A DNA stretch of 64,000 nucleotides from Streptomyces sp. HUAS 15-9. GTDB lineage: Bacteria > Actinomycetota > Actinomycetes > Streptomycetales > Streptomycetaceae. The translations under genes were made by a program, and so were the position numbers. The notes beneath the pieces are model-generated. The model did no database searches, had not been told where the DNA came from, and was given only the letters and a program-made list of their open reading frames with translations. Each line of letters opens with the position of its first letter. Within the stretch, counting starts at the first letter, position 1. The stretch lies in assembly GCF_025642155.1 (NCBI RefSeq), contig NZ_CP106798.1, forward strand, positions 4,588,001 to 4,652,000, in the 5' to 3' direction. Shown in pieces: positions 22,997 to 43,104 of this stretch.

Positions 22997-23012
22997 TCAC
23001 GATGGCCAGCAA

Positions 23013-23039
23013 AAAGGCCCGGGTCTCTGACCTGGGCCT
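23013..23039 (-). terminator. Terminator of tRNA-Gly
   Basis: AAGGCCCGGGT, short loop, ACCTGGGCCTT, directly downstream of the tRNA on the minus strand. It differs in sequence from the terminators beside copies A and B, which fits the idea that this 3' end was supplied by an integrating element. Confidence 0.75.
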
Positions 23040-23045
23040 TCTCCA

Positions 23046-23119
23046 TGGAGCGGGTGACGAGAATCGAACTCGCGCTCTCAGCTTGGGAAGCTGATGTTCT
23101 ACCATTAAACTACACCCGC
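23046..23119 (-). tRNA. tRNA-Gly (anticodon CCC)
   Basis: A complete 74-base tRNA with encoded CCA. The acceptor stem is GCGGGTG/CACCCGC with discriminator T. The D-arm contains GTTTAATGGTAGAAC. The anticodon stem-loop is TCAGC-TTCCCAA-GCTGA giving anticodon CCC, and the T-arm is CGAGTTCGATTCTCG. Its 3' half is repeated at 16373 and 19816, so this gene is the attachment site used by past integrative elements. Confidence 0.95.
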
Positions 23120-28553: not shown

Positions 28554-28808
28554 TCACCTGCCGGCCGCATCCCACAGCGTCACCGCAAGTGCCGTGCACG
28601 AGGTCACCGCCGCGAGGGATGGCAGGGGCCAGCGGGTGCGTTCGAGGGCGTCGAGTCGTTCCTCGTGGTCGCCGAGGGTCTTGTCGGTCTGGTCGGCGCG
28701 CTGCAGGAGCAGGGCCAGATCGCCCCGGGTGGTGGCGAAGCCGACATCGACGGACCGGCGGAGGCGCTCGAGTTCCAGGGCGACTCCTTCGGCCTCTCGG
28801 GTGGTCAT
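28554..28808 (-). CDS. XhlA-like phage lysis-associated protein
   Basis: An 84-residue protein with AAGGAG before the ATG. A long heptad region (ALELERLRRSVD… to …DHEERLDALERT) predicts a coiled coil, and the last 20 residues (LPSLAAVTSCTALAVTLW) form one membrane helix. This coiled coil plus C-terminal anchor is the layout of XhlA, which works with a holin and amidase to release phage-type particles. It lies directly after the amidase at the end of the tail gene cluster. Confidence 0.6.
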   Translation of the reverse strand: MTTREAEGVALELERLRRSVDVGFATTRGDLALLLQRADQTDKTLGDHEERLDALERTRWPLPSLAAVTSCTALAVTLWDAAGR

Positions 28809-28935
28809 GGAGACTCCTTCTTGCCCTTGCGCGGTGAGGGGGTGTCCCGGCGGCCGGCCCGCCTGCGAGCAGAGGGGCGAGCGTGACGAGGGTCTCGACT
28901 GCCACCCGCAGGGTGCGGCGCATGACATCACTCAT
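28805..28935 (-). pseudogene. Short holin-like gene, apparently frameshifted
   Basis: An ATG at 28935 has a strong GAGGAGG ribosome site and starts 12 bases after the amidase. It encodes MSDVMRRTLRVAVETLVTLA followed by PLLA, the start of a membrane helix. In that frame the protein then reads on through the next gene in atypical sequence. In another frame the segment ends with a basic tail (RRRAGRRDTPSPRKGKKESP) and a stop that overlaps the next ATG (ATGA), which is normal operon spacing. This suggests a one- or two-base shift in a tiny membrane protein gene. Confidence 0.4.
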
Positions 28936-28947
28936 CGGGCGGCCTCC

Positions 28948-29802
28948 TCAACCCGTGCGCGGTACGTGCAGCAGGTCCCAGCTCGCGCGGCCAGGGACGC
29001 CGTCGGCGGCGGGACCCGCGTACCCCAGCTTTCGCTGCCAGACGGCGTACGAGCGCATGTCCGCCTTGCCCCATACCGGGCCGGGGCCGACGGAGTAGCG
29101 GCCGCAGCCCTCGGCCACCAGGCGCCGGCCGATCGCCGTGATGAGCGGGCCGCGGCGCCCGAAGGCGAAGTAGGCGGCGCCGGGGAAGGGCTCGTACGGC
29201 GTCGCATCGGGCGTCGGGCGCGGTCCGAGGCGGGCGTCGATCCTGGAACGCATGCCCGGCATCGGGAAGGACGGGTCGATCTTGCGTCGCGTCCACTCCC
29301 GGTGCCCGATCACGCTTGCCGCGGACCAGCCATGGGCGCGGCACAGAGCGGCCGACAGCCGCTCCACCGCGTCGAGCTGGGCCGGGGGATACGGGTCGTG
29401 GCCGGTGCCGAGGTTCTCGATCTCGAAGCCGTAGAAGTGCGCGTTGCCGTCGACGGCGTCGGGGCCCGGGGCGGGCGGCGGTGTCCTCTCGGCGACCACG
29501 GCGGCCAGGACCGCGGCGGAGCCGGAACCGGCGTGGTTGGTACGGCCCCAGCCCACCAGGTGCACGGTGCCGTCCTTGGCGACCAGCCCGGCGCACAGCG
29601 GGCCGGGCAGCGTGGGAGTGCCCTCGAGACACAGACGGAGACTGTCCGACCCGGCGGTGTGATGGAGCATCACGCCGTGGACCGGGCCCCAGGGCCCTTT
29701 GTGATTGCGGTTGTGCGTCCGCCAGTTGCCGTGCTCGCGGACGACGACGCCCTTGGCGCGCAGGGCACGCACGAGGGCGTCCGGGGTCAGTGGAGTGGCC
29801 AT
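28948..29802 (-). CDS. N-acetylmuramoyl-L-alanine amidase (endolysin-type) of the tail cluster
   Basis: A 284-residue protein with an Amidase_2/PGRP domain: VMLHHTAGS with zinc-binding His at about 47, YGFEIENLG, and HREWTRRKIDP with the later zinc ligands near 167. It cleaves the amide bond between muramic acid and the stem peptide. The C-terminal 70 residues (MRSYAVWQRKLGY, DGVPGRASW) look like a peptidoglycan-binding unit. No signal peptide is present, as expected for an endolysin or tail-associated enzyme. It follows the fibre-like gene by 7 bases. Confidence 0.88.
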   Translation of the reverse strand: MATPLTPDALVRALRAKGVVVREHGNWRTHNRNHKGPWGPVHGVMLHHTAGSDSLRLCLEGTPTLPGPLCAGLVAKDGTVHLVGWGRTNHAGSGSAAVLAAVVAERTPPPAPGPDAVDGNAHFYGFEIENLGTGHDPYPPAQLDAVERLSAALCRAHGWSAASVIGHREWTRRKIDPSFPMPGMRSRIDARLGPRPTPDATPYEPFPGAAYFAFGRRGPLITAIGRRLVAEGCGRYSVGPGPVWGKADMRSYAVWQRKLGYAGPAADGVPGRASWDLLHVPRTG

Positions 29803-29809
29803 GGTGTCC

Positions 29810-30451
29810 TCAACTCACGGGGGTGACGGTCACGAAACGGTTGGTGAACGTCGCCGTGCTGGTCGTGGCGGCCGACTTGTAGGCCAAGGTGGCGGTGTAC
29901 GCACTGTTCACCGTCAGGCCGGTGACCTGGAACTGGGTGGTCGCCGAGCACAGGTCGGTGCCGTAGCAGACCGCAGCCCGGCTGTCCGTGGCCGCGAGTG
30001 TGACGGACGTACCGAGACGGACATTCGCGGAGACATAACAGGCCGTCGCCGCACTGCTGTTGATCCGGGCACCCACCGTGACCAGTACGGATCCGGAGGC
30101 CGGTGCGGTGAAGGTGACCGAGGTCGGGTCGCCGGTGGAGCCGGTCAGCGTCTCGGCGTACGAGGTGGATGTGGTCGTCCCGGTCGCGGTGTTGGCCTTG
30201 TGTACCGGGCCGGGGGCCAGCTGGGCCCAGGCGCCGCCAGTGTGGTACCAGAACTGCTTGGGTGTGGCGAGCCAGACCAGCATGCCGGCCACTGGGGACG
30301 TCACCTTGGCATCTCGGGTGGCGGCGTCGGCGAACCGCAGCACGGTGCGGCCGTCGACAGCCTCGGCGAGGGACTGGATGTGCTGCGGGACGTTCGCCGC
30401 GTCGGCGGGCTGTGGGTAGGGCAGGCTGCCGAGCGGAGTGAGCAGTGCCAT
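29810..30451 (-). CDS. Phage tail fibre/appendage-like protein
   Basis: I start at the ATG at 30451, which has AAGGAGG 8 bases upstream (213 residues). The N-terminal part (MALLTPLGSLPYPQPADAAN, VPQHIQSLAEAVDGR) is a typical structural start for tail or minor virion proteins in actinophages. It is followed by FWYHTGGAWAQL, a surface motif found in tail appendages. The C-terminal 130 residues are a Thr/Ser/Ala-rich beta domain that may bind a receptor. Position between the tip protein and the amidase supports a receptor-binding fibre. Confidence 0.7.
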   Translation of the reverse strand: MALLTPLGSLPYPQPADAANVPQHIQSLAEAVDGRTVLRFADAATRDAKVTSPVAGMLVWLATPKQFWYHTGGAWAQLAPGPVHKANTATGTTTSTSYAETLTGSTGDPTSVTFTAPASGSVLVTVGARINSSAATACYVSANVRLGTSVTLAATDSRAAVCYGTDLCSATTQFQVTGLTVNSAYTATLAYKSAATTSTATFTNRFVTVTPVS

Positions 30452-30722
30452 GGCGGCTACCTCCTTGGGACGTGGGGGGCGCGTCGGGGCGTCGCTGATT
30501 CGGTGTAGGGCGGGCCGACGCGGGTGGGCGCCGGCGCGTGCGATCCGCGCTCGTACGGAAGACGAGCGCACTGGGGGCGACGGGCGGGCGTGCAGGTGCG
30601 GGTGGATGCCGCCCCCCGGGGCGCGAAGGCGGGGGTCGCGGGCGGGTTTCTTGCCGGGTTGGCCTTGCGCACCCACGGTGGCCGCGGGGCGTACTCGCGC
30701 GCGGCCCGACCGGGTGTCGCCG

Positions 30723-30902
30723 TCAGCCGCCGAGTGCCGGTGGGAGGGTGTCGGAGGGGCTGCCGTCGTCGCCGGCGCGCGAGGCCGCGCTGTCGACCGG
30801 CACGGGTACGGCGGTGTCGCCGTCCTGGGCGGGGACGTCCGGCAGCGGTACGGCCGTGCCCTCGTCGTCGGCCGCGAGGCCCTGTGCGCTCATGGCGCTC
30901 AT
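30723..30902 (-). CDS. Small acidic protein coupled to the tail tip gene
   Basis: A 59-residue protein whose ATG overlaps the stop of the 793-residue gene (ATGA at 30902-30899). It is rich in Asp, Ala, Pro and Val and probably disordered, with no motif. The tight overlap argues for a real, coupled gene, perhaps a chaperone-like or minor tail component. Between its stop and the fibre gene (270 bases) I see no further gene. Confidence 0.6.
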   Translation of the reverse strand: MSAMSAQGLAADDEGTAVPLPDVPAQDGDTAVPVPVDSAASRAGDDGSPSDTLPPALGG

Positions 30903-33280
30903 ACCGCACCCCCCGGCGGCTGGAGCAGCTCGCGGTAGGTGAGCCTGCTCTGGGTGAGGTCGTCCAGGGTCGGGAACTGCGCGGCGACCAGGGCGTAGCT
31001 GCGCCGGCTGCCGTACTGCGGATCCACCGGCGGGTCGGGCGTGAGACCGGAGTCCAGGGGGACGCCGTTGTACGAGGTGCCGCGCAGGGTCAGCGTCTGC
31101 TGGGGCACCGAGCCCGCCTGGCAGGTGGTGCGGATGCCGACGACCCAGGCGAAGGTGTCCAGCGCGGCGCCGGTGGTGTCCACCACCCGGACGACGTCGC
31201 CGAGCTGGATGCGCGGGTCGTGCAGGACCTCCACGTCGCCGAGCAGGGGGACGGGGTAGCGGCCCGCGTCGAGCATGGCGTGGGAGAGGTCGGAGGCCGA
31301 TTGTCGCTGCTGCACCCAGTCGGTCGCGGGAGCCTGGTAGACCTGCTTGCCGTAGTACGCCTGGCTGGTGGTGTTGTACCAGGCGAACGTGCGCTGCGCC
31401 GGGTCCGCGGTCCGCTTCTGCGGCACGATCTGCACGGACGGCTTGCCGTCCTTGGTGACCGTCCACACGCTGGCCGTACCGTGGTTGACGAACCGGACGA
31501 TGTAGTTCGGCCCGTCGCGCCGCGAGCTGACCGTCACACCGCCCTTGACCGAGGAGCCGCCGGTGGCCGCGCTGCCGAACCGGACCTTGTGCCCGGTCGT
31601 CACGGCCGCGTCGTCCTCGATCTGCAGCGGGCCGATGTCCAGCTCGTCCTCGGCCATGGCGTACGCCACCTCGACCACCGCGCCGGGCCTGATCTCCCGT
31701 ACGACGGTGTCGGCGGTCGTCCCGGCATAGGTGGAGCGGACGCCGTTGTAGTCCCGGTATGCCTGCTCGCAGTGGTTGCGGCAGGCGTCGATCTCCTCCG
31801 CGACGGTGAGCGCGGCGATGTCACGCCGCGTCGTGACGGTCACGTCCGGCTGGGCCGGCACCTTCTGGAACCGGCCGGGTCCGCGCCAGCGGAAGACACC
31901 CTGTTCGTCGAACTCGGCCGTGGACAGGGTCGCCCGCGCGATCTCGGTGATCACGTCCCACTGGGAACCCGAGACCCGCGGTACGTCGAACAGCGGGACC
32001 GTGACGTCGTCCAGTTCGGCACCCCTGGTCCAGCGGCCCCGCTGCTCCCACTCGTCGGCGGTGTAGGAGGCGAGGTCGGGCCACACCCGGTCGGTGATCT
32101 GGAGGCACTCGACGGCCACGTCCGTCTTCAGGTCGATCCGGAACAGCTCCGAGGGCGGCTGGGTGGACGACGCGGCGCTGAAGGTGACGGGCGCGCCGGG
32201 CACGACGTACTCCCCGTCGGGGGCGGTCAGCCGTGGGATCACGGTCGCCGGTGTGGCGGTGGACGTCGTCCCGGCCCGGGTGTCCACCGTGCAGCCCAGG
32301 TGCCAGGTGCCCTTGAGGGAGGCCAGCTTCGGCACGGTCCAGGTGTAGACCTGACCGCTCCCGTCCACCGTGCCGGAGGTGATCTTCACGGTGCCGGCGG
32401 CGAAGTCGACGTTCAGTGCGTAGTTGCCGTAGGCGCCCGCGCTGCGGTCGAAGACGAGCTTCAGCTCCAGGGCGCTGCCCACGGCACGGGCCGTGTTGAC
32501 GTACAGCTCGGCCTGGAACACCGTGCCGCCCACGACGAAGCGGGAGCGGGGCATCCACGACACCGCCAGTCCCGCGGCGGCCGGCATCAGAGCCATCTCG
32601 TACGGTGCGCCGTCGCGGATCCAGGTGTACGACGCCGGGTCGGGCAGTGTCTCCGGCTGGCCGTGGGTGGCGTTGAAGCCGCCGTGCAGCGAGGCGTACA
32701 ACGCGGTGGACGGCGCCGTGACGTCCGCGGCGGCCGCGGGCGCGCGGGGCGGCGGGCAGGTGTGGATGCCGCCCTGGCGCAGCAGTTCGTCCACGCACCA
32801 GATGGTGCTCGCCACCGGCCGGGCATACATCAGACCGTGGTAGGGCCGTGGTAGCAGGGCCGGTCCGCGCAGCCGCTCGGCGCCGTCCAGCGCCTGGACG
32901 GTGACGGTGTCGGTGCCGGAGGCCGCCGTGCGGGAGCGCACGGTGCCGCGGAAGGCGGGCAGGACCGCGCCGAGCAGGCCCGTGCGGTGCACGACGGACT
33001 GGCCGGGGCGTACGGCGTCGCCCGTGATGCGCCCGGCCCACGCCGAGTACAACCGGGGCGCGGGCACCCCGCTCGCACCGCCGAGCTGCACTTCCAGCTG
33101 GGCGGAGGCGCTGCCGGAGAAGGCGCGCAGAGCCTCGGGCAGGTCGGTGCTGTAGGCGCGCTCGACCTTCCAGGACTGCACCTGGCCGCCGATCTCCCGG
33201 CCGCCGCACCGGGTGGCGTGCGCCGGGGTGCGGTCGGGGGCGGCGAGTGAGCCGGCCAGTGCCGGGTCAGAGCTGAGCAC
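30899..33280 (-). CDS. Large tail tip / tail spike-like protein
   Basis: A 793-residue protein overlapping the distal tail gene by 14 bases. No signal peptide. The N-terminal third (VQSWKVERAYSTDLPEALR, then GASGVPAPRLYSAWAG) looks like the beta-sandwich domains of siphophage tail-hub proteins. The middle (YNVNTAR-like strands, TWTVPKLASLKGTWHLG) resembles a carbohydrate-binding jelly roll. The C-terminal third (EEIDACRNHCEQAYRDYNG, then LLGDVEVLHDPRIQLGDVV) resembles tail-associated hub domains. It is the largest gene of the cluster and the best candidate for the tip that contacts the target cell. No lytic motif was recognised. Confidence 0.75.
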   Translation of the reverse strand: MLSSDPALAGSLAAPDRTPAHATRCGGREIGGQVQSWKVERAYSTDLPEALRAFSGSASAQLEVQLGGASGVPAPRLYSAWAGRITGDAVRPGQSVVHRTGLLGAVLPAFRGTVRSRTAASGTDTVTVQALDGAERLRGPALLPRPYHGLMYARPVASTIWCVDELLRQGGIHTCPPPRAPAAAADVTAPSTALYASLHGGFNATHGQPETLPDPASYTWIRDGAPYEMALMPAAAGLAVSWMPRSRFVVGGTVFQAELYVNTARAVGSALELKLVFDRSAGAYGNYALNVDFAAGTVKITSGTVDGSGQVYTWTVPKLASLKGTWHLGCTVDTRAGTTSTATPATVIPRLTAPDGEYVVPGAPVTFSAASSTQPPSELFRIDLKTDVAVECLQITDRVWPDLASYTADEWEQRGRWTRGAELDDVTVPLFDVPRVSGSQWDVITEIARATLSTAEFDEQGVFRWRGPGRFQKVPAQPDVTVTTRRDIAALTVAEEIDACRNHCEQAYRDYNGVRSTYAGTTADTVVREIRPGAVVEVAYAMAEDELDIGPLQIEDDAAVTTGHKVRFGSAATGGSSVKGGVTVSSRRDGPNYIVRFVNHGTASVWTVTKDGKPSVQIVPQKRTADPAQRTFAWYNTTSQAYYGKQVYQAPATDWVQQRQSASDLSHAMLDAGRYPVPLLGDVEVLHDPRIQLGDVVRVVDTTGAALDTFAWVVGIRTTCQAGSVPQQTLTLRGTSYNGVPLDSGLTPDPPVDPQYGSRRSYALVAAQFPTLDDLTQSRLTYRELLQPPGGAV

Positions 33281-34112
33281 CGCGCACCTCCACCAGTTCG
33301 ACGCCGACGCTCCGGTACGGCAGCGGGGAGGCGGGCACGTCGGTGTACGCCGTGACGCTCATCGCCGGGCAGCCGTCGCCGAGCGCGAAGGCGACCGGGT
33401 CCTCGCCGACGGTCAGGCAGGCCCCGGCGAGGCCGATGGTGCCGGTGGCGCCGGGTGCGCCGAGCGGGGTGACGAAGGCGGCACCGGCCGGAGCGGTCCC
33501 GGTGACGGTCGTGCCGTTCGCGGACGTGGAGCCGAGGTAGGAGCCGTCGACGGCCTTCCAGTCCAGCTGGGCGATGGCGGTCGCCGGGCTCCAGTCGGGC
33601 GGCAGCAGCCACGACACCTGCATGCCGGGCATCACGGGCCAGCCGGTCCACGTGACGTGCCGCCAGCCGATGCGGGTTGCCGCGTCCTGGCAGTCACCGA
33701 CCACCGTGTCCCCGATGAACGGGCTGATGACGACCGTGCCCTGCACGGTGAACCAGTGGTCCGCGCCGCTGTCCTGGCTGCTCTGCGCGGCGGCCTGGTA
33801 GGGGTCGAGCAGGTTCACCGAGGCCGGGTCGAGGACGGCCACCGGGCCGTACGCGGTCCGTGAACTGCCCAGCGTTCCCGGCCCGTTGATCCGGCGCGCC
33901 AGGCGGACCAGATGCTGGGCGTCCGCCGGCGGGAGGGCGTCCCAGGAGAGCTTGAGCCGGCGCGCGCCGCGTGCCGGGGCCACGGTGGTGATGCCGCCTT
34001 CCAGGGACTTGAACTCGGTGACGTTCAGCTCGGCGGTGCGGTCCCAGGCCTTGGCGGCCTGGTCGATCTCCAGCAGCAGACCGGGCTTGCCGATCCACAG
34101 ATTCCTGGCCAT
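33267..34112 (-). CDS. Distal tail protein (Dit-like)
   Basis: A 281-residue protein beginning MARNLWIGKPGLLLEIDQAA. Its first 90 residues (…ELNVTEFKSLEGGITTV…, RLKLSWDALPPADAQHL) match the usual hub-forming N-terminal domain of distal tail proteins. The rest is a beta-rich domain with a possible galectin-like fold. Position directly after the tape measure and before the tip protein is the canonical place for Dit in siphophage tails. It starts 6 bases after the tape measure stop. Confidence 0.75.
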   Translation of the reverse strand: MARNLWIGKPGLLLEIDQAAKAWDRTAELNVTEFKSLEGGITTVAPARGARRLKLSWDALPPADAQHLVRLARRINGPGTLGSSRTAYGPVAVLDPASVNLLDPYQAAAQSSQDSGADHWFTVQGTVVISPFIGDTVVGDCQDAATRIGWRHVTWTGWPVMPGMQVSWLLPPDWSPATAIAQLDWKAVDGSYLGSTSANGTTVTGTAPAGAAFVTPLGAPGATGTIGLAGACLTVGEDPVAFALGDGCPAMSVTAYTDVPASPLPYRSVGVELVEVRGAQL

Positions 34113-34118
34113 GTCGTC

Positions 34119-35006
34119 TCACCTCCGGGCGAGTTGGCGCTGTCCGACGAGGACGGCACGGGCGATGACTTGCGAGTCCACCTGGATCTGAACCGGCCGT
34201 TCGGCGAGCTTCTCCACGGCGGCGGCGAGCCGGTGCATCCCGCCGCCCGAGGCCAGCACCCGCTCCAGCTTCGACAGCGGGATGACTGCCTCGGGCTCGC
34301 CTGCCTCGGCCAGCAGCGCCAGGGTGCCGCCGCGACGGGCGGGCACGACGCCGCCCTTGGCGAGGGTGGGGATGTTGGGCAGCAGCGGGATGTTGACGCC
34401 GAACTCCCGGCCGCCGAAGTGGGGCACCCAGCTCGGGATCTTGACATGGATGCGGTTCAGGGCGCCGATCATGGCGTTGAGACCGCTGATGTAGGAGCGG
34501 GGCAGGGCAGTGAAGGAGTTGACGATGCCCTTCATCACCGACTTGATGGGCCCCGCGTGGTTCTTCACGGCCCCGTAGATGGCGTTCCACGCCCACTTCA
34601 CCCCCTTGGCGAGGGCGGCGGAGACCTTGTCCATGTTGATGAACTGGGAGATGAGCGGGGCGAGCAGGGCCATCACCAGCCCGAGGGCGTTCGCCTTCAT
34701 GGCGGTGTTGAGCCCCTTCTGGGCGAGGGTGGCGCCCTTCAGGCCCGTACCGAAGCCCTTCATCGAGGCCCCGCTCTGGCCCGCCTTCTTGCCCGCGTTC
34801 CCGACTGACTTCTCCACGGCGTCGGACTGGCGCTTGATGTCACGCAGTGCGGTGTGGGTGTGGGTGGAGGAGGACTTGAGGTGGTCCAGGGAGGTCTTGA
34901 GCTTGTCGGTGCTTCCCTTTCCCTTGGCCAGGGCGGTGGAAGCCTGCGCTAGGGTGCTGCTCAGCCGTCGGAAAGCAGCGACGGATTGGGTGACGATACC
35001 GGCCAT
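34119..35006 (-). CDS. Tail tape measure protein, very short (295 residues)
   Basis: The first 90 residues are helical and Lys/Ser-rich (coiled coil). A hydrophobic helical segment (NALGLVMALLAPLISQFINM) and Gly/Ala-rich stretches follow, then the C-terminal signature GGREFGVNIPLLPNIPTLAKGG split across VVPARRGGTLALLAEAGEPE and AVIPLSKLERVL. This last motif is a hallmark of tape measure C-termini (AEAGPEAVIPL type). Most siphophage tape measures have 700-1500 residues. At about 0.15 nm per residue this one would set a tail of only about 44 nm. The ATG overlaps the upstream stop (TGATG). Confidence 0.85.
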   Translation of the reverse strand: MAGIVTQSVAAFRRLSSTLAQASTALAKGKGSTDKLKTSLDHLKSSSTHTHTALRDIKRQSDAVEKSVGNAGKKAGQSGASMKGFGTGLKGATLAQKGLNTAMKANALGLVMALLAPLISQFINMDKVSAALAKGVKWAWNAIYGAVKNHAGPIKSVMKGIVNSFTALPRSYISGLNAMIGALNRIHVKIPSWVPHFGGREFGVNIPLLPNIPTLAKGGVVPARRGGTLALLAEAGEPEAVIPLSKLERVLASGGGMHRLAAAVEKLAERPVQIQVDSQVIARAVLVGQRQLARR

Positions 35007-35626
35007 CAGGTAAGCCTCCCGAGGCTGCTGGAGGAAGTGCGGGTGAGTGTTTCGAGCCGCGCCATTTCGTTGCGGACATGGCCGATTTCCGTACTCAGAT
35101 GGGATGCGGAAACACGGAGTTGAGCTGCTTCGCGGTCGAGTTGGCGGACCTCTTGCATGCGGCGCCGGCTGATGGGGATACCGCTCCTTCCTTGGGCCTG
35201 ATTGGCGCGGGTTTCTGCGGTGGATGCGCTACCGGTGGCCTCGGTCAGTTCCCGTTCGAGGCGCTGCAGGCGCTCGGTCAGTTGGCGCTGAGTGGCGAGG
35301 TTCCGCTGACGCTGTTCGCGGAATTCTGCGCTGAGGCGAGAGTTGTCGATCCCTCTGATCAGCGGGAATTTGTAGATCTCGACACCGAGAAAACTGACCC
35401 CGTGTGCGGTCACCGTTATCATCTCGGGGGAGATGTTGAGAAGGCTTGGATCGGTCTTGAAGGCTTGTGTGCTCTCGTAGATGAGCTGGTTGTTCGCGGC
35501 CACCCATTTCTTCAGGTGCCCGTCGAGCCATTTGGGCAGCCAACCCTTCTCGGGCGGCTTCGGCTGCAAGGTACCTATTTCCGCTTCAAGCTGATGTATT
35601 TTGTCCCAGATTGCCGACTCTGTCAC
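35006..35626 (-). CDS. Coiled-coil protein of the tail cluster, function unknown
   Basis: A 206-residue protein from a GTG with GGAGG upstream. Residues 1-95 form a globular part (PEKGWLPKWLDGHLKKW, MITVTAHGVSFLGVEIYKFP) that I do not recognise. Residues 100-200 are a long heptad coiled coil rich in Arg, Glu, Gln and Leu. Its stop overlaps the tape measure start, so it is co-translated. It occupies the place between the assembly chaperone and the tape measure where no extra gene is expected, so it could be a cargo, a tail completion factor or an accessory sheath for the tape measure. Confidence 0.75.
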   Translation of the reverse strand: MTESAIWDKIHQLEAEIGTLQPKPPEKGWLPKWLDGHLKKWVAANNQLIYESTQAFKTDPSLLNISPEMITVTAHGVSFLGVEIYKFPLIRGIDNSRLSAEFREQRQRNLATQRQLTERLQRLERELTEATGSASTAETRANQAQGRSGIPISRRRMQEVRQLDREAAQLRVSASHLSTEIGHVRNEMARLETLTRTSSSSLGRLT

Positions 35627-35663
35627 TATGCCTCCATGCTTCTCGCGATGTGTTGTGCGGCGA

Positions 35664-35669
35664 TAGGCT
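35664..35669 (+). promoter_or_regulatory. -10 box of a leaderless promoter for the DUF3592-type gene
   Basis: TAGGCT 6 bases before the ATG at 35676, with no ribosome site between. It gives the plus-strand gene inside the tail cluster its own promoter. Confidence 0.45.
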
Positions 35670-35675
35670 CACGGC

Positions 35676-36068
35676 ATGGACACCCTGATTGTTCAGTTAA
35701 TCCTGCTCGCCATGGCAGCAGGATGCCTTGCGTTCGGCCTTTACTGGCCGTGGGCGCTTTGGATGCTGAAGCGGCGAGGGAAGTTGGCTGAGGTGATGCG
35801 GCGCAGCGAGAGCTGGGTCGGAGGTCATTTCAGCTACCTGCTCACATTCATGGATCACAGGGGCGAAATCCAGGTGATCGGCGCCTCGACCATGATTCGC
35901 GAAGGCAAGAAGGTCCCCTTGACGGAATGGGACGCAGTTCAAGTGATCTACGATCCGCGGAAACCTGCCAGGGCAAGGTTGTATCCCCTTGACTGGAGAG
36001 AGGCCGGCCTGCTGGTCTACGGCATGATTCCAGCCGTGATCCTGATCGTGGTCGCCCTGAATCTCTGA
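35676..36068 (+). CDS. DUF3592-like membrane protein, reversed inside the tail cluster
   Basis: A 130-residue protein with an N-terminal membrane helix (LIVQLILLAMAAGCLAFGLY) and a C-terminal one (GLLVYGMIPAVILIVVALNL), flanking a beta-rich extracytoplasmic segment (GEIQVIGASTMIREGKKVPL, then WDAVQVIYDPRKPARARLYP). The motif V.V.YDP..P..AR is typical of DUF3592 proteins. It is the only plus-strand gene within the otherwise minus-strand tail module and has its own leaderless promoter, like a moron gene in a prophage. Function unknown. Confidence 0.75.
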   Translation: MDTLIVQLILLAMAAGCLAFGLYWPWALWMLKRRGKLAEVMRRSESWVGGHFSYLLTFMDHRGEIQVIGASTMIREGKKVPLTEWDAVQVIYDPRKPARARLYPLDWREAGLLVYGMIPAVILIVVALNL

Positions 36069-36094
36069 ACACCGGTCCTCGTCCGCTCACGACC

Positions 36095-36481
36095 TCACGT
36101 AAAGAGCTCGGCCAGTTCGGCGAGAGAGGGACGCTCGGGATCCTGGTCGGGGCGGGTGTCCATGCCCGGTCGCCGCAGGGACTGCGGCGGATCCAGCGGC
36201 TCGCTGTCCTCGTCGCGGTGGACTGTCGCGAACATCCAGTTGGATTCTGCAAGTTGGTCGACGACGGCGGCGAGCAGATGGTCTGTCGTCGTCCAGTCGG
36301 CGGCCTCGCCGTGCAGCTCCCTCAGCAGCGCGCTGTCCCGCGGCAGATGCCGGACCAGCACCGCCAGCCGGCGCGAGGAGAGCCGGCCGCGGTGCCAGTC
36401 CAGTAGGTCGACGCCGTAGTGGCGGAGCAGGTCTGCCTCCAGGGCCTCGGCGTGCTCTTCGACGAGCTCGCCGAGGCTCAG
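36095..36481 (-). CDS. T part of the tail assembly chaperone GT, made by -1 frameshift
   Basis: A 129-codon frame that overlaps the end of the G gene and has no normal start codon at its beginning. It is open from at least 36481 (LSLGELVEEHAEALEADLL…) through HYGVDLLDWHRGRLSSRRLA to the stop at 36095. The next ATG is 40 codons inside a conserved-looking region. The two frames join at a run of five G (CTG GGG GAA GGC TGA). A -1 slip on this run would bypass the G stop and give a fusion …GLGLG-GRLSLGELV…. This is the classic G/GT organisation upstream of tape measure genes (phage lambda G and GT). Confidence 0.7.
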   Translation of the reverse strand: MSLGELVEEHAEALEADLLRHYGVDLLDWHRGRLSSRRLAVLVRHLPRDSALLRELHGEAADWTTTDHLLAAVVDQLAESNWMFATVHRDEDSEPLDPPQSLRRPGMDTRPDQDPERPSLAELAELFT

Positions 36482-36768
36482 CCTTCCCCCAGGCCCAGCC
36501 CCGTCTCCTTGCCGTAGGCCTCCAGGATCGCGGCGACGTCCTGCATGGTGACGTCGTGGCGCTCGAAGCGGGCGAACTGGTCCTCGCCGAGGAGGAGCCG
36601 AAGCAGCCCGTCGACGTCGTTGTCGTCGAGGTCACGCAGCTCGCGCGCGGTCGTGCAGGTGAGTTCGGTCGGGAGCTTGAAGTTGTCGCCGTCCAGTTCG
36701 AAGGACCAGTCGCGGCCGAGCGTCTCCAGACGCTGGGCTCGGGCGGCGTTGACGTCGAAGGCTGTCAT
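36478..36768 (-). CDS. Tail assembly chaperone G
   Basis: A 96-residue acidic helical protein (MTAFDVNAARAQRLETLGRD, then ELRDLDDNDVDGLLRLLLGE). Length, position between the tail tube and tape measure genes and the downstream overlapping frame all fit chaperone G. G and the frameshift product GT coat the tape measure and recruit tail tube subunits. The stop TGA at 36478-36480 follows a GGGGGAAGG run. Confidence 0.75.
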   Translation of the reverse strand: MTAFDVNAARAQRLETLGRDWSFELDGDNFKLPTELTCTTARELRDLDDNDVDGLLRLLLGEDQFARFERHDVTMQDVAAILEAYGKETGLGLGEG

Positions 36769-36795
36769 CTCGGGCTCCTTGTCGGTGGGTCGGAG

Positions 36796-36827
36796 GGTGC
36801 CCGGCGTGCGCGCGCACGCCGGGCACC
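36796..36827 (-). terminator. 32-bp perfect palindrome between tail tube and chaperone genes
   Basis: A perfect inverted repeat with 16-base arms (GGTGCCCGGCGTGCGC and its complement) and no loop bases to spare. It sits after the tail tube gene and before the chaperone. With no T run it may act as an attenuator or mRNA stabiliser, letting the tube protein be made in excess over the later genes. Confidence 0.6.
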
Positions 36828-36844
36828 ATGAGGACGTAAGGGGA

Positions 36845-37438
36845 TCAGGCCAGCGCCGCCGGGTCGTTCACCAGCCAGGTGGCCAGCGGCTTGGTCGGGT
36901 CGTCGCCCGACAGCGCGGTGAAGGTGACGCCCAGCTTGACCGCGCCGGTGCGGGACAGGGACAGCTCCTCCACATCGGAGACGGCGCCGTACGGGATCAC
37001 CAGCCGGTAGCGCAGGTCCTTGGTGCCGTTGTTGTCCGCGAAGTCGATGGCGAGGGCCCGCTGGTCCTGGCCGCCCGGGGCGCCGGTGATGTCGATCTTC
37101 TGCGCGGTGGTTTCCGCCTGGGAGCCGGAGGAGGCGATCGAGGTGGACGGGAGCCCCAGGTAGAACGGGAACGTGTCCTTGTTGATCTGGAGCAGCTGGA
37201 ACTTCAGGGTCAGGTCCCGGTCCGAGAGCATGAAGCGTGCCGGGGCCATGGACTGCCAGGTGTCGACCGGGTCGTTCTTGTCCTTCTTGTTGAACTTCAC
37301 GCCGTCCGACGAGGTGAAGCCCAGATTGACCCACGGGGAGGCCAGCGCGGTGGTGTCCTTCGCGGAGTTGCCGGCCGGGGCCCACCAGACGTTGCCGGCG
37401 CCGGCGATGCGGATCTCGGTGTTCTTGAAGCCTGCCAT
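36845..37438 (-). CDS. Major tail tube protein
   Basis: A 197-residue protein from the ATG at 37438 (MAGFKNTEIRIAGAGNVWWA). The pattern of an N-terminal structural start with WWAP, a DGVKFNKKDKNDPVDTW-type loop, and a C-terminal Ig-like strand set (TGAVKLGVTFTALSGDDPTK, then PLATWLVNDPAALA) fits siphophage major tail proteins. Length is in the usual 150-250 range. It is placed directly after the tail-terminator-like gene and before the assembly chaperone, as in canonical tail operons. No sheath protein is present, so the tail is non-contractile. Confidence 0.8.
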   Translation of the reverse strand: MAGFKNTEIRIAGAGNVWWAPAGNSAKDTTALASPWVNLGFTSSDGVKFNKKDKNDPVDTWQSMAPARFMLSDRDLTLKFQLLQINKDTFPFYLGLPSTSIASSGSQAETTAQKIDITGAPGGQDQRALAIDFADNNGTKDLRYRLVIPYGAVSDVEELSLSRTGAVKLGVTFTALSGDDPTKPLATWLVNDPAALA

Positions 37439-37469
37439 CTGTGCTCCTCGGTGAGAGTGGTGAAGTCGC

Positions 37470-37871
37470 CTACGCGGGGCGGATGGAGAGCCGGAGCGTG
37501 GCCAGGTAGCGGTTGCCGGCCGGTCGGTTGTAGTCCGGCAGCCAGCGGGGTCCGTCCGCCTCGTCGACGTCGGTGACCAGCGCGGTGCCGTAGCGGGTGC
37601 CCTGGAGCTCCAGCGCGCAGGCTCGGGCCGCGTTGGCCGTGGCGAGGGCGGCGGTCTTGTCCGGCCCGTACGCCTCGAGGTCGACCAGCGGCCTGTCGAG
37701 GTTGAGGTCGTCGATCCAGGCGCCACCGGCGCGGGAGACGAGGACGACCTGCTGGGTGCCGTCGAATCCGGCGGGCGGCCTGTTGTCGACCGTGGTCCCG
37801 GCCATTTCGGTCCGGTTCTTCAGGAAGTCGACGACCAGCCGCTCCACGTCGGGGAAATTCAGGGTCGCCAC
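37470..37871 (-). CDS. Tail terminator / tail completion-like protein
   Basis: A 133-residue protein from a GTG with GAAGGGAG upstream (VATLNFPDVERLVVDFLKNR). It has the alpha/beta pattern of siphophage tail terminators (gpU-like): N-terminal helix, PAGFDGTQQVVLVSRAGGAW strands, DLEAYGPDKTAALATANAAR helix, and a C-terminal strand. It would cap the tube after length control. It is the first gene of the tail unit, 31 bases ahead of the tail tube gene. Confidence 0.7.
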   Translation of the reverse strand: MATLNFPDVERLVVDFLKNRTEMAGTTVDNRPPAGFDGTQQVVLVSRAGGAWIDDLNLDRPLVDLEAYGPDKTAALATANAARACALELQGTRYGTALVTDVDEADGPRWLPDYNRPAGNRYLATLRLSIRPA

Positions 37872-38024
37872 ATGGACGCTCCCTTCGTGTCCGGGCAGCA
37901 GAAAGCGGCAGGTCCGCCGCCCGGGACACGGGCGCAGCTCTGCCGCTGCTTCGAGTGTGACGGGAGGGCGCTGCTCCCGCAACTGACCTTGTGACAGGGT
38001 TGGTTGACCACTGAGCGTGCCGAA

Positions 38025-38053
38025 GGGCCCCGTCGCGGTGAGCGACGGGGCCC
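38025..38053. terminator. Hairpin between the regulatory operon and the tail operon
   Basis: GGGCCCCGTCGC, 5-base loop, GCGACGGGGCCC: a perfect 12-bp stem just after the helix-turn-helix gene. There is no T run. It could end the regulatory operon or serve as an antitermination point before the tail genes, whose first start is 150 bases further on. Confidence 0.65.
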
Positions 38054-38070
38054 GATGGCGGACGAGCGGA

Positions 38071-38259
38071 TCAGCGGTGGCCGCGCAGGCGGTGCGTGGT
38101 CCGTTCGGCGGCGAACACGTCCTCCAGGCGGTAGAGCTGCCGCCTGCCCTGTGTTCCGGCGGGCCGCAGATGGCCGCGCTGTACCCACTTGCGGATGGTC
38201 GCCGGGGTGACGCCGGCCTCCTCGGCGGCGAGTTCGGCGGTGATGAGGGCGCCGTTCAC
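38071..38259 (-). CDS. Small MerR/excisionase-type helix-turn-helix protein
   Basis: A 62-residue protein from a GTG with GAGGAGGT upstream that overlaps the previous stop (GTGA). Nearly the whole protein is a winged helix-turn-helix: LAAEEAGVTPATIRKWVQRG, then a wing HLRPAGTQGRRQLYRLEDV. Such proteins act as DNA-bending excisionase-like or regulatory factors. It is the last gene of the three-gene control operon next to the tail genes. Confidence 0.75.
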   Translation of the reverse strand: MNGALITAELAAEEAGVTPATIRKWVQRGHLRPAGTQGRRQLYRLEDVFAAERTTHRLRGHR

Positions 38260-38798
38260 GGTGTGACCTCCTCGTCGACGTCCCGGTCCTGGAGCACCCG
38301 CACGCAGGCGGGGTTCACGCACCGCACCTGTGCCCGCTCCGGGAACGCCCGCAGCGAGACGGAGCCGCAGCCCGGGCAGCGGCCGGGCAGGCGCACCATC
38401 TGCTCCGGGTCGCCGAGGACGCGTACGCAGCGCGCGGCCATGCGCCGTGTCTCGTCCTCGACATGTGCCGCGAGGACGGGATCGGCGGCGATCCGCTCCA
38501 GCAGTCCCGCGATCCGGCGCAGCCGCACGGGCACGGGCGCGGGGCGCAGAGGGCGCAGGCCGAGCCGTTCGCGTACGGCCTCCTCCAGTTCGACCACTCC
38601 GTCGGTGAGATCGCGCAGGACGTCGGAGACATGCAGCCGTACGGGGACTGTGGTGCCGCCTACGGGCCCGCCGCCGCGCCGTTCCCGCAGCCCCCCGTGG
38701 GCCGCGGGCGCCAGTTCGGCGACGAGTTCCGGGTACCGGCGCAGCAGGGAGCCGATCCAGAGCGCGGGCCCTTCGGCGGCGGAGTCCGCCTGGCTCAT
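38256..38798 (-). CDS. Hypothetical protein with C-terminal zinc ribbon
   Basis: A 180-residue protein whose ATG overlaps the WhiB-like stop (ATGA) and whose stop overlaps the next start. The body is helical and Arg/Leu-rich (LRDLTDGVVELEEAVRERLG). The C-terminus has a zinc ribbon CPGCGSVSLRAFPERAQVRC followed by VNPAC. Zinc-ribbon proteins of this size with WhiB and helix-turn-helix neighbours recur in actinophage-derived loci. It probably binds nucleic acid or a regulator. No enzyme motif. Confidence 0.7.
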   Translation of the reverse strand: MSQADSAAEGPALWIGSLLRRYPELVAELAPAAHGGLRERRGGGPVGGTTVPVRLHVSDVLRDLTDGVVELEEAVRERLGLRPLRPAPVPVRLRRIAGLLERIAADPVLAAHVEDETRRMAARCVRVLGDPEQMVRLPGRCPGCGSVSLRAFPERAQVRCVNPACVRVLQDRDVDEEVTP

Positions 38799-39016
38799 AC
38801 GGCCACCTCGCGCCCGTTGCGCCACAGCCGTCCGCCGCTGACGCCGTCGAACCAGGTGTGCGAGGGGTCGACGACGGCTTCGCACTCCCGCCGGATGGGG
38901 CATTGGTTGCATGCGCGCAACGTCCGTCGTGCGTCCGCCCTGTCGCGGGTGAACACGTAGCGCTGTGGAAGGTTGGCGCAGGCTGCTGCTCTGCGCCAGT
39001 CGAGTTCGCTGGTCAC
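38795..39016 (-). CDS. WhiB-like Fe-S regulatory protein
   Basis: A 73-residue protein from a GTG with GGGAGG upstream. Four Cys are spaced as in Wbl proteins (C13, then CNQC, then C after five residues: RRTLRACNQCPIRRECEAVV), which should hold a [4Fe-4S] cluster. The turn WFDGVSGGRLWR corresponds to the Wbl G-[VI]-W-G-G turn but is altered (GVSGG). Wbl proteins bind the principal sigma factor and change promoter choice; phage-encoded ones are known to affect the host. It is the first gene of the control operon and divergent from the XRE gene. Confidence 0.8.
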   Translation of the reverse strand: MTSELDWRRAAACANLPQRYVFTRDRADARRTLRACNQCPIRRECEAVVDPSHTWFDGVSGGRLWRNGREVAV

Positions 39017-39047
39017 GGGTGTCGCCTCCCATCGGATGGGAATATGT

Positions 39048-39064
39048 GTTCGACATGTGCGAAC
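39048..39064. promoter_or_regulatory. Operator-like inverted repeat upstream of the WhiB-like operon
   Basis: GTTCG-N7-CGAAC, 30 bases upstream of the WhiB-like start. A related arrangement (GTGTTCGA … GCGAACG) recurs at 39158-39183. The repeated half-sites suggest binding by the adjacent XRE or LexA protein. Confidence 0.5.
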
Positions 39065-39177
39065 GATCGTCAGCGTGGCACCGTGCGAGCGCGGTCGCAA
39101 GCGGCTTGGATGGTGGGGCGGGGGTGAAGAGGGGTGTGAGTGGCGAGAAATGACGGTGTGTTCGATGAATCCGTATG

Positions 39178-39191
39178 CGAACGTTAGTTCG
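39178..39191. promoter_or_regulatory. LexA-type SOS box between divergent regulators
   Basis: CGAACGTTAGTTCG is a perfect match to the Gram-positive/actinobacterial LexA operator CGAAC-N4-GTTCG. It lies in the 300-base space between the WhiB-like operon (minus) and the XRE gene (plus). DNA damage should therefore relieve repression of one or both units and, through them, the tail genes. Confidence 0.75.
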
Positions 39192-39317
39192 ATATCTAAA
39201 AAGGTGTGTCGAAGGCGAGGTGCGCATGCAAGCGGTCCGGTCACGTTCGTGTGCGCACAGCCGAGCTGCGCGTGCGATCGGTACTCTCTGCTCCCGCGAC
39301 GAGGGGAGAGCAGCACG

Positions 39318-39758
39318 ATGGGAACCGGCCAACGTGCTGAACGCGCGGAACGCGCCGACGCGCTGGAGGAGTTCGCGGCCTGGGTCGAGGACCTCATGCG
39401 TAACCGCGGATACGTCATCGACGGCCCGCGCGGCGGCGGCAAGTCGAGGCTGGCCGACGACGCGGGGGTGCACCGGGCCGCGGTGACCCGGCTGCTGCAC
39501 CGGAAGAGCATGCCGGACCTCGAGACCATGCGCCGTCTGGCCGTGGTGCTGGGCGTGACCCTGCGGGACATGCTCATCCGGTCCGGGCGGCTGTCCGAGG
39601 CGGATCTTCCGCTCGACCCCGACCCGGGCGGGAGCATGGCAGCGGACCGGCGGATCAGCCCCGAGGAAGCGGCGCGGAGGTTGGGCGTTCCCGAGGAACT
39701 GCGCGGCCTGTTCGTGAAGGTGACCCGGCAGTTCCTGCCGGAGGGTTCCCAGCCCTAG
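39318..39758 (+). CDS. XRE-family transcriptional regulator of the tail cluster
   Basis: A 146-residue protein with a GAGGGGAG ribosome site. Residues about 20-85 form a lambda-repressor-like helix-turn-helix (DDAGVHRAAVTRLLHRKSMP, then DLETMRRLAVVLGVTLRDM) preceded by the segment YVIDGPRGGGKSRL. That segment looks like a P-loop but belongs to this DNA-binding family. The C-terminus (RRLGVPEELRGLFVKVTRQF) may mediate oligomerisation. It is divergent from the WhiB-like operon across the SOS box, and is the likely repressor or activator of the tail module. Confidence 0.8.
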   Translation: MGTGQRAERAERADALEEFAAWVEDLMRNRGYVIDGPRGGGKSRLADDAGVHRAAVTRLLHRKSMPDLETMRRLAVVLGVTLRDMLIRSGRLSEADLPLDPDPGGSMAADRRISPEEAARRLGVPEELRGLFVKVTRQFLPEGSQP

Positions 39759-39792: not shown

Positions 39793-40194
39793 ATGGGGAG
39801 CTACGGTGGCGGCCAGGGCGGTGACGACGCGGAACGGCTCGCCCATCTGCTGGGCGGCCTGCTGATCGAACTCGGCGAGAAGGTCAGGGAGGCGGGCCCC
39901 GAGGCCGTACGCATTCTCACGGACGACGAGGTCCAGCGCACCAACCTGCAGTGGTACCGCACGGGCTGGGAGGAACACGCCAGGGCCGTCCGCTCCTCCG
40001 GCAGGCCCGTCCCGCCCACCCGGTCCCCCGAACCGGCGCGGCCACCCGTCGTACCCATCCGCGCTCCCGATCCGGCGCGCCCGTCGGGCCATCCGGCCGA
40101 CCCCGACACCCTGTCCTCGGCCGGGCGCCCGCTCCGTCTCCCCGAGCACGCCGCCGACCGTCCCGGTCACGATCCGTCGGCCCGGCCGCGCTGA
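39793..40194 (+). CDS. Hypothetical protein with disordered Pro-rich tail
   Basis: A 133-residue protein with GAAGGAG 8 bases before the ATG, 34 bases after the XRE stop and in the same direction. The first 65 residues are helical and acidic (DDAERLAHLLGGLLIELGEK). The rest is a Pro/Arg/Ala-rich disordered tail. No motif is recognised. Spacing suggests co-transcription with the XRE gene. Confidence 0.65.
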   Translation: MGSYGGGQGGDDAERLAHLLGGLLIELGEKVREAGPEAVRILTDDEVQRTNLQWYRTGWEEHARAVRSSGRPVPPTRSPEPARPPVVPIRAPDPARPSGHPADPDTLSSAGRPLRLPEHAADRPGHDPSARPR

Positions 40195-41743: not shown

Positions 41744-42225
41744 AGCCCGGGGAAAGTGGGCGCCTTACCGGTACCGGTCCCTTGGGCGCGCTGCGTTCAT
41801 GACGTTCGCTACGGGGCGCGGCCGCGCCTCGCCAGCACGCCGGGCGGGTTTGGCGGCGAGCGGCCGGTGGGTGGGTTTGGCGGCCAGCCCCAGGTGGGTG
41901 GGGTCGCGCCCGGTGGGTGGGAGATGGGGCCGCGCCCGGTGGGCCGGATGGGGCGAGTGGGGTGGGAGAGGCGGGGTGTAGGGGTGATTGGGCGTTTTGG
42001 GTCACGCCCCCGAGGGGGGTACCCGTCTGACCGCGCAATTTGCGAAGGGGCCGCCGGGGGCCCTGGCGCAAAACTGCCAATCATCGCCGGGGTGGGGGTG
42101 GTGAGACCTCTGTGCCTGTCGGGGGAGTCGCCGAGCGCGCGGTGTGCGTGTGCGGGCCGGGAGCGCGCAGGCCTCCTGCCGACCGATGGCCGCCAAGCTG
42201 GCCGGGTGCCCCCGCCCTGTGTCCG

Positions 42226-42690
42226 CGCCCCACCTCTCACCGGCCGCGGGTCGCTGGACCGGCCCGGTGTGCCGTCACCTGCCCCTGCGCCCCACCTCTC
42301 ACCGGCCGCGGGTCGCTGGACCGGCCCGGTGTGCCGTCACCTGCCCCTGCGCCCCACCTCTCACCGGCCGCGGGTCGCTGGACCGGCCCGGTGTGCCGTC
42401 ACCTGCCCCTGCGCCCCACCTCTCACCGGCCGCGGGTCGCTGGACCGGCCCGGCGTGCCGTCACCTGCCCCTGCGCCCCACCTCTCACCGGCCGCGGGTC
42501 GCTGGACCGGCCCGGCGTGCCGTCACCTGCCCCTGCGCCCCACCTCTCACCGGCCGCGGGTCGCTGGACCGGCCCGGCGTGCCGTCACCTGCCCCTGCGC
42601 CCCACCTCTCACCGGCCGCGGGTCGCTGGACCGGTCCGGCGTGCCGTCACCTGCCCCTGCGCCCCACCTCTCACCGGCCGCTCGCCGCCA
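42226..42690. repeat. 62-bp tandem repeat, seven full copies and a partial one
   Basis: Each unit begins CGCCCCACCTCTCACC and contains GGCCGCGGGTCGCTGG and CCGTCACCTGCCCCTG. Copies start at 42226, 42288, 42350, 42412, 42474, 42536, 42598 and 42660 (partial). Copies 1-3 have CGGTGTGCC, copies 4-7 CGGCGTGCC, and copy 7 also has a C-to-T change, so the array grew by stepwise duplication. Since 62 is not divisible by three, a reading frame rotates through all three phases without stops; I regard these open frames as artefacts. Confidence 0.95.
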
Positions 42691-42931: not shown

Positions 42932-42991
42932 TCACAGTCGGCCCGAAGGGCCCTCGGCCCACGTAGACAGCAACGCCCCCAACCGCACGGC

Positions 42992-43080
42992 GACGCCCCC
43001 CACACGCAACGCCCCCCACACGCAACGCCCCCCACACGCAACGCCCCCCCACACGCAACACCCCACACACAACGCCCCCC
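42992..43080. repeat. Short 16-bp tandem repeat, about five degenerate copies
   Basis: Units of CACACGCAACGCCCCC with small changes, next to the terminator of the Fe-S oxidoreductase gene. The repeat unit includes one arm of that terminator (AACGCCCCC), so the array probably grew from it. No gene is seen between 42932 and 43126. Confidence 0.75.
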
Positions 43081-43104
43081 AACCCATCCAGGTCAGGGGG
43101 CGTT
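43071..43104 (-). terminator. Terminator of the Fe-S oxidoreductase gene
   Basis: AACGCCCCC paired with GGGGGCGTT across a 16-base loop, 23 bases after the stop at 43127. Confidence 0.7.

Follow-up and report, generated by a model that had tools for sequence, protein, structure and literature searches.

A 64,000-nucleotide stretch of Streptomyces sp. HUAS 15-9 (contig NZ_CP106798.1, positions 4,588,001 to 4,652,000; hereafter, the window) carries, between its positions 28554 and 39758, a cluster of siphophage-type tail genes together with a set of regulators and lysis genes. There is good support for regarding it as a conserved tail cluster without a head. In our reading, to which we assign a probability of roughly 0.7, it is a domesticated headless non-contractile tail used by Streptomyces as an F-type tailocin. 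The same proposal had been made in a first-pass annotation from the sequence alone, and it is now supported by the gene order, the intactness of the genes, the selection acting on them, the variation of the tip and the lack of head genes. Additionally, the cluster contains two neighbouring variable genes, a cassette inherited together and independently of the tail backbone.

The tail assembly chaperone was detected in 59 of 295 Streptomyces genomes (57 with strong matches), in at least 29 of 200 genomes and at least 7 of 17 genera of the family, and in at least 2 of 396 genomes of the phylum, these being its own genome and one weak match; the family and phylum scans scored a part of the first-look candidates (e.g. 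12 of 69), and misses are possible. Weak chaperone matches (8e-5 to 9e-4) in genomes G189 and G016, and a second one in G201, were dropped, and the set of 57 genomes used below consists of 20 and 36 fetched regions plus the window. A scan of a species-genome collection gave 170 relatives, and 78 of the best 80 of the 170, which were kept, are labelled Streptomyces; a locus labelled Microtetraspora glauca is the same locus as that of G076, a genome placed in the window's genus. Merging reduced 137 loci to 113 distinct ones, which form group A (30 loci with the window-type tip), group B (65 loci with the same regulators and a different tip) and group C (18 loci without recognised regulators, some owing to contig ends).

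Gene order and the absence of head genes

The features of the cluster are as follows (window coordinates; aa, amino acids; ORF, open reading frame).

28554–28808, minus strand: small protein with a C-terminal hydrophobic segment, 84 aa (phrog_5225, 5e-24), in 27 of 30 group A loci
28858–28935, minus strand: truncated holin-like remnant, beginning only; a holin-like ORF occupies the same place in 18 of 27 group A loci
28948–29802, minus strand: N-acetylmuramoyl-L-alanine amidase (endolysin; PF01510, 1.2e-20; phrog_880, 2e-61)
29810–30451, minus strand: fibre-like or minor tail protein, 213 aa (phrog_16452, 8e-13; phrog_7565, minor tail protein, 8e-10)
30723–30902, minus strand: small ORF between tip and fibre, 59 aa, from gene calls; small ORFs are likewise placed in several relatives
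30899–33280, minus strand: tail tip protein, 793 aa, with a lectin-like jelly-roll insert (residues ~178–427), named by position and partly by a structure model
33267–34112, minus strand: distal tail protein by position (synteny), 281 aa, in 30 of 30 group A loci
34119–35006, minus strand: short tape measure protein, 295 aa (phrog_991, 5e-12, and other tape-measure families)
35006–35626, minus strand: variable cassette gene 1, coiled-coil protein, 206 aa, with a TGATG stop/start overlap with the tape measure
35676–36068, plus strand: variable cassette gene 2, DUF3592-like membrane protein, 130 aa (PF12158, 16.5 bits, under the cut-off of 25.3; slot profile enrichment)
36095–36483, minus strand: GT extension of the chaperone in the -1 frame, as in 111 of 112 loci
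36484–36490, minus strand: slippery site GGGGGAA for programmed frameshifting (GGGGGAAG in 111 of 113 loci)
36478–36768, minus strand: tail assembly chaperone (G), 96 aa (phrog_10551, 1e-24)
36845–37438, minus strand: tail tube protein, 197 aa (PF25681, Phage_TTP_17, 4.5e-45, 154 bits)
37470–37871, minus strand: tail terminator, 133 aa (phrog_123, 6e-20)
38071–38259, minus strand: MerR/HTH_17-type regulator, 62 aa (PF12728, PF00376 and PF13411, above cut-offs)
38256–38798, minus strand: zinc-ribbon protein, 180 aa (Zn_Ribbon_TF, 0.0066, under cut-off), in 29 of 30 group A loci
38795–39028, minus strand: WhiB-like regulator (PF02467, 7.7e-7)
39048–39064, no strand: inverted repeat GTTCG-N7-CGAAC in the divergent promoter region, operator candidate; similar repeats lie beside the box in several relatives
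39178–39191, no strand: perfect LexA-type (SOS) box CGAACGTTAGTTCG, the sole exact match in the window
39318–39758, plus strand: XRE/Cro-type regulator (PF01381, 1.1e-8)
39793–40194, plus strand: accessory gene accompanying window-type clusters, in 17 of 30 group A and 0 of 65 group B loci, with no Pfam match

The minus-strand genes from 28554 to 38798 form a siphophage-type tail set with the WhiB, zinc-ribbon and MerR genes ahead of the tail genes, and the XRE gene points away from them. The canonical order described in the first-pass annotation was borne out by PHROG and Pfam matches and by position; the distal tail and tip proteins found no family match in either scan. The tight overlaps that it claimed are real (14 nt between tip and distal tail, TGATG at 35006, and 4 nt between whiB and zinc ribbon). 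Within its control block, the WhiB, MerR-type helix-turn-helix and XRE proteins pass the Pfam cut-offs, and only the zinc ribbon stays under its own. The name “XhlA-like” for the 28554–28808 protein is that of the first-pass annotation; no XhlA family match was obtained, and the best family is of unknown function. The coiled-coil gene and the DUF3592-like gene, which sit within the minus-strand tail run, are additions to its gene list. The contractile injection systems (CIS/SLP) are likewise domesticated tails of the same genus, but they are contractile and carry a sheath; no contractile sheath or baseplate family was found among the cluster proteins scanned against PHROG and Pfam, so a contractile injection system is disfavoured.

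The slippery site at the chaperone gene end has the same offset in 110 loci, which, together with the -1 frame of GT, gives the programmed-frameshift arrangement of a tail chaperone at the sequence level. Counted from the first possible start, the tape measure ORFs have a median length of 354 aa in group A and of 399 aa in group B; a second tape-measure-like gene is present in one group B locus, and therefore group B tails may be longer. Tail length follows a rule of ~1.5 Å per tape measure residue, and its application to the 295 aa of the window protein gives a tail of perhaps ~45 nm. Actinophage tails have a homologous tube, and a chaperone with 47% identity is found in IMGVR_UViG_2574179795_000003 (42.6 kb), which shows the same terminator–tube–chaperone–tape measure order but differs in having a terminase, a portal and a tape measure of 1490 aa.

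Head genes were sought with four models (portal PF04860, HK97-type capsid PF05065, large terminase phrog_9 and portal phrog_104). None of the four gave a match anywhere in the window's own genome, other capsid and portal families lying outside the search, and a complete prophage was rejected on this basis. Matches to the four models, in the order given, were present in 12, 16, 21 and 14 of the 57 cluster-bearing genomes; none lay near the cluster, the closest on the same contig being ~0.54 Mb off, and in fragmented assemblies matches on other contigs cannot be positioned relative to it. In G201, a terminase, a portal and a distant chaperone occur together on another contig, and therefore the searches do recognise headed loci where present. 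Thus, the first-pass statement that capsid, portal and terminase are missing holds both near the cluster and, by the four models, in its genome. The retained terminator gene, and the large terminase found somewhere in 21 of the 57 genomes, would suit a tail donor for a head encoded elsewhere (by a satellite, gene transfer agent or helper phage); with none of the searched-for head genes in the window's own genome and a tape measure far shorter than in the headed relative, we regard this as highly improbable.

Conservation, control region and tip

All 30 group A loci have intact terminator, tube, chaperone and distal tail genes; the tape measure is intact in 29 of them and the tip in 28, in agreement with the first-pass view that the cluster is maintained rather than decaying. 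Intactness was scored from the best tblastn piece only, with shorter matches counted as not intact (the tape measure of locus L146 and the tips of L127 and L194), yet the distal tail match of L044, in two pieces ~400 bp apart, was scored intact. In comparison with the close relative L120 (S. rhizosphaerihabitans), the ratio of nonsynonymous to synonymous substitution rates (dN/dS) was 0.09 to 0.45 across the cluster genes, and a host iron–sulphur gene used as comparator gave 0.41 (737 codons). Note that these ratios were obtained by the Nei–Gojobori method for nine chosen pairs and that dS in G+C-rich DNA is probably underestimated. The first-pass annotation had expected a conserved particle to show dN/dS well below 1, and this was mostly found, the exceptions being swapped modules.

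The tube has distant matches in 95 phage records, all below 60% identity (the best-ranked being Streptomyces phage Kromp, 34.6%), the amidase has matches in 408 phage records, four of them at 60–80% identity, and eight IMG/VR contigs carry chaperone relatives with 44–69% identity. At the same time, the chaperone and tip proteins had no match in 50,697 phage records, and the tip protein had none in 72,556 plasmids. Together, these searches indicate that the tail derives from a phage and has long evolved apart. The IMG/VR record L210, with 69% chaperone identity, is only 11.3 kb long and may be a headless cluster catalogued as a virus.

A decaying prophage remnant that has kept its tail genes by chance would be consistent with the distant kinship of the tube to actinophage tubes and of the chaperone to IMG/VR contigs, with the truncation of the holin-like gene, and with an integrase-like ORF fragment, recognised by eye, at 22523–23119 beside a tRNA-Gly gene, ~5 kb from the cluster and possibly a former integration site. 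Such an origin by chance retention is very unlikely, given the same headless order in many species, the intact core genes, the conserved frameshift site, dN/dS mostly between 0.1 and 0.45, and a chaperone and a tip without counterparts in the phage records.

Synteny across Streptomyces, a further expectation of the first-pass annotation, was confirmed, with gene order conserved in many species. Its “same chromosomal site” was found only in part: among 88 loci with a usable regulator-side flank, one site is common to five including the window, and another is common to 58 (54 of group B and 4 of group A); among 24 with a usable lysis-side flank, one site is common to four including the window. 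Two kinds of unusual loci were also seen. Loci L109–L115 have terminator, tube and chaperone relatives (60–65% chaperone identity) and no recognised regulators or amidase, and they represent either a third cluster variant or another element. Locus L117 has the regulator block and a gene of the 28554–28808 type, with tube and tape measure not recognised, and is possibly a cluster stripped of tail genes or one with distant ones.

The exact LexA-type box lies between whiB and the XRE gene. The window's own genome contains eight exact LexA-type sites versus one for a control pattern; by eye, some of the others fall within ORFs and one (L203) lies beside a MazF/PemK-like gene, and these were not used as support. 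The best LexA match of the genome is at a locus with a one-mismatch box, and no box with fewer than two mismatches was found at two further LexA-domain loci. Upstream of the XRE gene, 15 of 27 group A loci have a box with no more than one mismatch, exact in seven of them, with a background of 0.064 per 900 bp. A second inverted repeat, GTTCG-N7-CGAAC, coincides in part with the box in several relatives; in the window it is separate from the exact box. LexA, the XRE protein or both could be the binder, these being indistinguishable from sequence.

The tip module varies between loci, as the first-pass annotation had anticipated for a tip or fibre. The structure model of the tip protein has a mean predicted local distance difference test score (pLDDT) of 57.5, and only residues ~178–427 were interpreted; their structural matches are lectin-like jelly rolls (calreticulins, binding domains of clostridial neurotoxin complexes and others), a modelled likeness that in itself demonstrates no function. 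Sequence profiles run against the Protein Data Bank sequences gave no match for the tip and one weak match for the tube (9d93, E 0.017). The amidase gene is intact in the window. The suspicion in the first-pass annotation that the short holin-like gene is broken was confirmed.

Several of these results weigh against the tailocin reading. First, dN/dS reaches 0.5–0.85 in swapped modules: 0.51–0.85 for distal tail, tip and fibre versus L133, 0.79–0.80 for the tube versus L122 and L167, and 0.66–0.70 for the tape measure versus L119, L122 and L167. The raised ratios in these distant-allele modules imply that the tip module, the tube and the tape measure are exchanged as blocks. Second, boxes were found in 4 of 64 group B loci (one mismatch, none exact), not above the background of 0.114; thus the proposed SOS control, supported by a perfect box that recurs in the window's subfamily, is not family-wide and does not extend to the larger second subfamily. 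Third, the box could be an XRE operator instead of a LexA site. Fourth, the holin-like gene of the window is truncated, and 9 of 27 group A loci lack a hydrophobic ORF of this kind between the amidase and the 28554–28808 gene; this strain may release particles poorly or via another membrane protein.

The loss of the holin in some loci would also suit an intracellular or developmental tail machine acting on its own cell, in a role like that of the cytoplasmic contractile systems of Streptomyces, for which the WhiB and MerR-type regulators suggest developmental ties and for which PMC10066040 and PMC10020575 provide a precedent in S. coelicolor. We consider this unlikely, since the amidase, the variable tip and its lectin-like insert point outward and the box is of the SOS type.

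The variable cassette between chaperone and tape measure

A hypervariable slot separates GT from the tape measure. The tubes of the window and of the L120 locus (L032) are 91% identical and their tips 88%, yet neither slot gene of the window finds a counterpart there. Among 5.8 billion proteins, the window's slot protein matched itself and two others, one of them partial; more distant relatives were found in the slots of the fetched loci. A profile of the DUF3592-like slot proteins gave 65 matches in slots (381 kb), 57 of them on the opposite strand, and five outside (1,697 kb), an enrichment biased upwards because the profile was trained on slot proteins, counts frames, and was applied to slots that include GT and tape measure matches. 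The DUF3592-like gene occupies the slot in 46 of 108 loci and in 20 of 30 loci of group A. An extra gene in the slot of L035, L036 and L041 contains a reappearing N-terminal domain of the fibre protein.

The two cassette genes are inherited together, independently of the backbone. Among loci with tubes below 70% identity, both genes are shared in 7 of 839 pairs versus ~0.3 expected (Fisher 6e-10; 45 loci carrying both genes, with pairs not independent), and at tube identities of 85% or more a similar first gene is seen in only 13 of 91 pairs (18 at a laxer threshold, pairs again not independent). After controlling for similarity in tube, tape measure, GT and chaperone, cassette genes 1 and 2 have a partial Mantel correlation of 0.66, a value that none of 2000 permutations attained, whereas no correlation of gene 1 with any of these four exceeds 0.08 (0.02 for the tape measure). 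Automatic extraction of the first gene picked doubtful frames in some cases (e.g. L134, L152 and L153), which adds noise to these statistics. Seven pairs share the cassette despite divergent tubes; their tape measures are 61–80% identical versus a median of 52%, and part of the tape measure may therefore travel with the cassette.

By a hydropathy rule, two hydrophobic segments are present in 35 of 45 second-gene proteins, and at least one in 45 of 84 filtered first-gene proteins, of which only 15 of 84 contain a simple motif. The structure model of the first-gene protein (mean pLDDT 65.6) shows helices, a small region of strands and, at the C terminus, a long helical hairpin; it was not used for a structure search, since long helices match anything. 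Slot G+C content is below that of the backbone in 29 of 30 group A loci (59.3 vs 68.7% in the window); low G+C as a general mark of the cassette was rejected, being found in 31 of 62 group B loci only.

Co-inheritance of this kind is the pattern expected of an effector and its immunity protein. Tailocin self-protection is usually ascribed to receptor specificity, and we tentatively propose, at less than even odds, that this family of Streptomyces F-type tailocins has swappable effector–immunity cassettes, in which a membrane-active coiled-coil protein would be loaded with the tape measure and the DUF3592-like protein would shield the producing cell against its own particles and those of siblings. 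The membrane gene has the opposite orientation to the tail operon and could therefore be expressed even with the operon silent. This proposal is weakened by the lack of the DUF3592-like gene in the slot of 62 of 108 loci and by the failure to recognise a toxin domain in the coiled-coil gene, which gave weak coiled-coil-type matches in PHROG and Pfam.

The main rival to the effector–immunity interpretation, and one that we place somewhat short of an even chance, is a two-piece tape measure, variable in sequence with tail length or assembly, the opposite-strand membrane gene being a hitch-hiker with no immunity role. The overlap of the first gene with the tape measure start, its coiled-coil model, the second tape-measure-like gene of the group B locus, the many slots devoid of the DUF3592-like gene and the elevated tape measure identity of the seven cassette-sharing pairs all fit such an arrangement. 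What does not fit is that the cassette genes correlate with each other far more than the first gene does with the tape measure, and that 57 of the 65 profile matches have the opposite orientation.

Proposed mode of action and related systems

The account of induction, particle formation and killing that we offer for the tailocin is predicted from gene content. DNA damage would cause LexA to leave the box in the whiB/XRE control region, whereupon the tail operon would be expressed, with frameshifting presumably fixing the ratio of G to GT chaperone. The tube protein would polymerise along the short tape measure, and the terminator would close the tail. The amidase and associated membrane proteins would then lyse the cell and free the particles, which would bind a surface glycan of related strains via tip and fibre and damage the membrane. 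In this scheme, the variable part acting on the target membrane would be the coiled-coil protein, whose synthesis immediately precedes that of the tape measure, and the DUF3592-like membrane protein, encoded divergently, would be a putative immunity factor.

Tape-measure-directed superinfection exclusion (HK97 gp15, TP-J34 Ltp) involves a membrane-associated protein encoded by the element whose tail gets blocked. The DUF3592-like protein can be likened to these by role, as a small membrane-associated protein from a tail-encoding element, with the difference that it would shield the producer from its own headless tail.

Among headless particles, the Listeria monocins (ftb clusters), F-type tailocins from a Gram-positive host, are, according to sections of PMC7076858, likewise siphophage-type tail clusters with a terminal holin–lysin cassette, made under SOS-inducing conditions. 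As compared by description, they belong to another phylum, whereas the Streptomyces cluster has WhiB, zinc-ribbon, MerR and XRE control, and those sections mention no membrane-gene cassette (PMC7076858). F-pyocins of Pseudomonas and rhizoviticin of Allorhizobium are also chromosomal non-contractile headless tails, as far as the extract of PMC10811719 covers them, but their hosts are Gram-negative; rhizoviticin, in the same extract, retains an early phage region with an integrase, while none was seen among the Streptomyces cluster genes, where no search aimed at integrase was made.

Beyond the cluster, a 62-bp tandem repeat with 7.4 copies (99% matching) lies at 42225–42681 of the window and is followed by 16/32-bp repeats at 42970–43081.

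F-type tailocins are known in very few bacteria, F-pyocin, monocin and rhizoviticin being those named in the extract of PMC10811719, and none of the open-licence PMC papers among the matches listed deals with a non-contractile tail cluster in Streptomyces. With the cluster present in about a fifth of the sampled Streptomyces species, the best-known antibiotic producers would gain a protein weapon, which in one subfamily would fall under the DNA damage response. Moreover, if the cassette is an effector–immunity pair, tailocin self-protection would become directly testable by gene deletions in common laboratory strains of Streptomyces.

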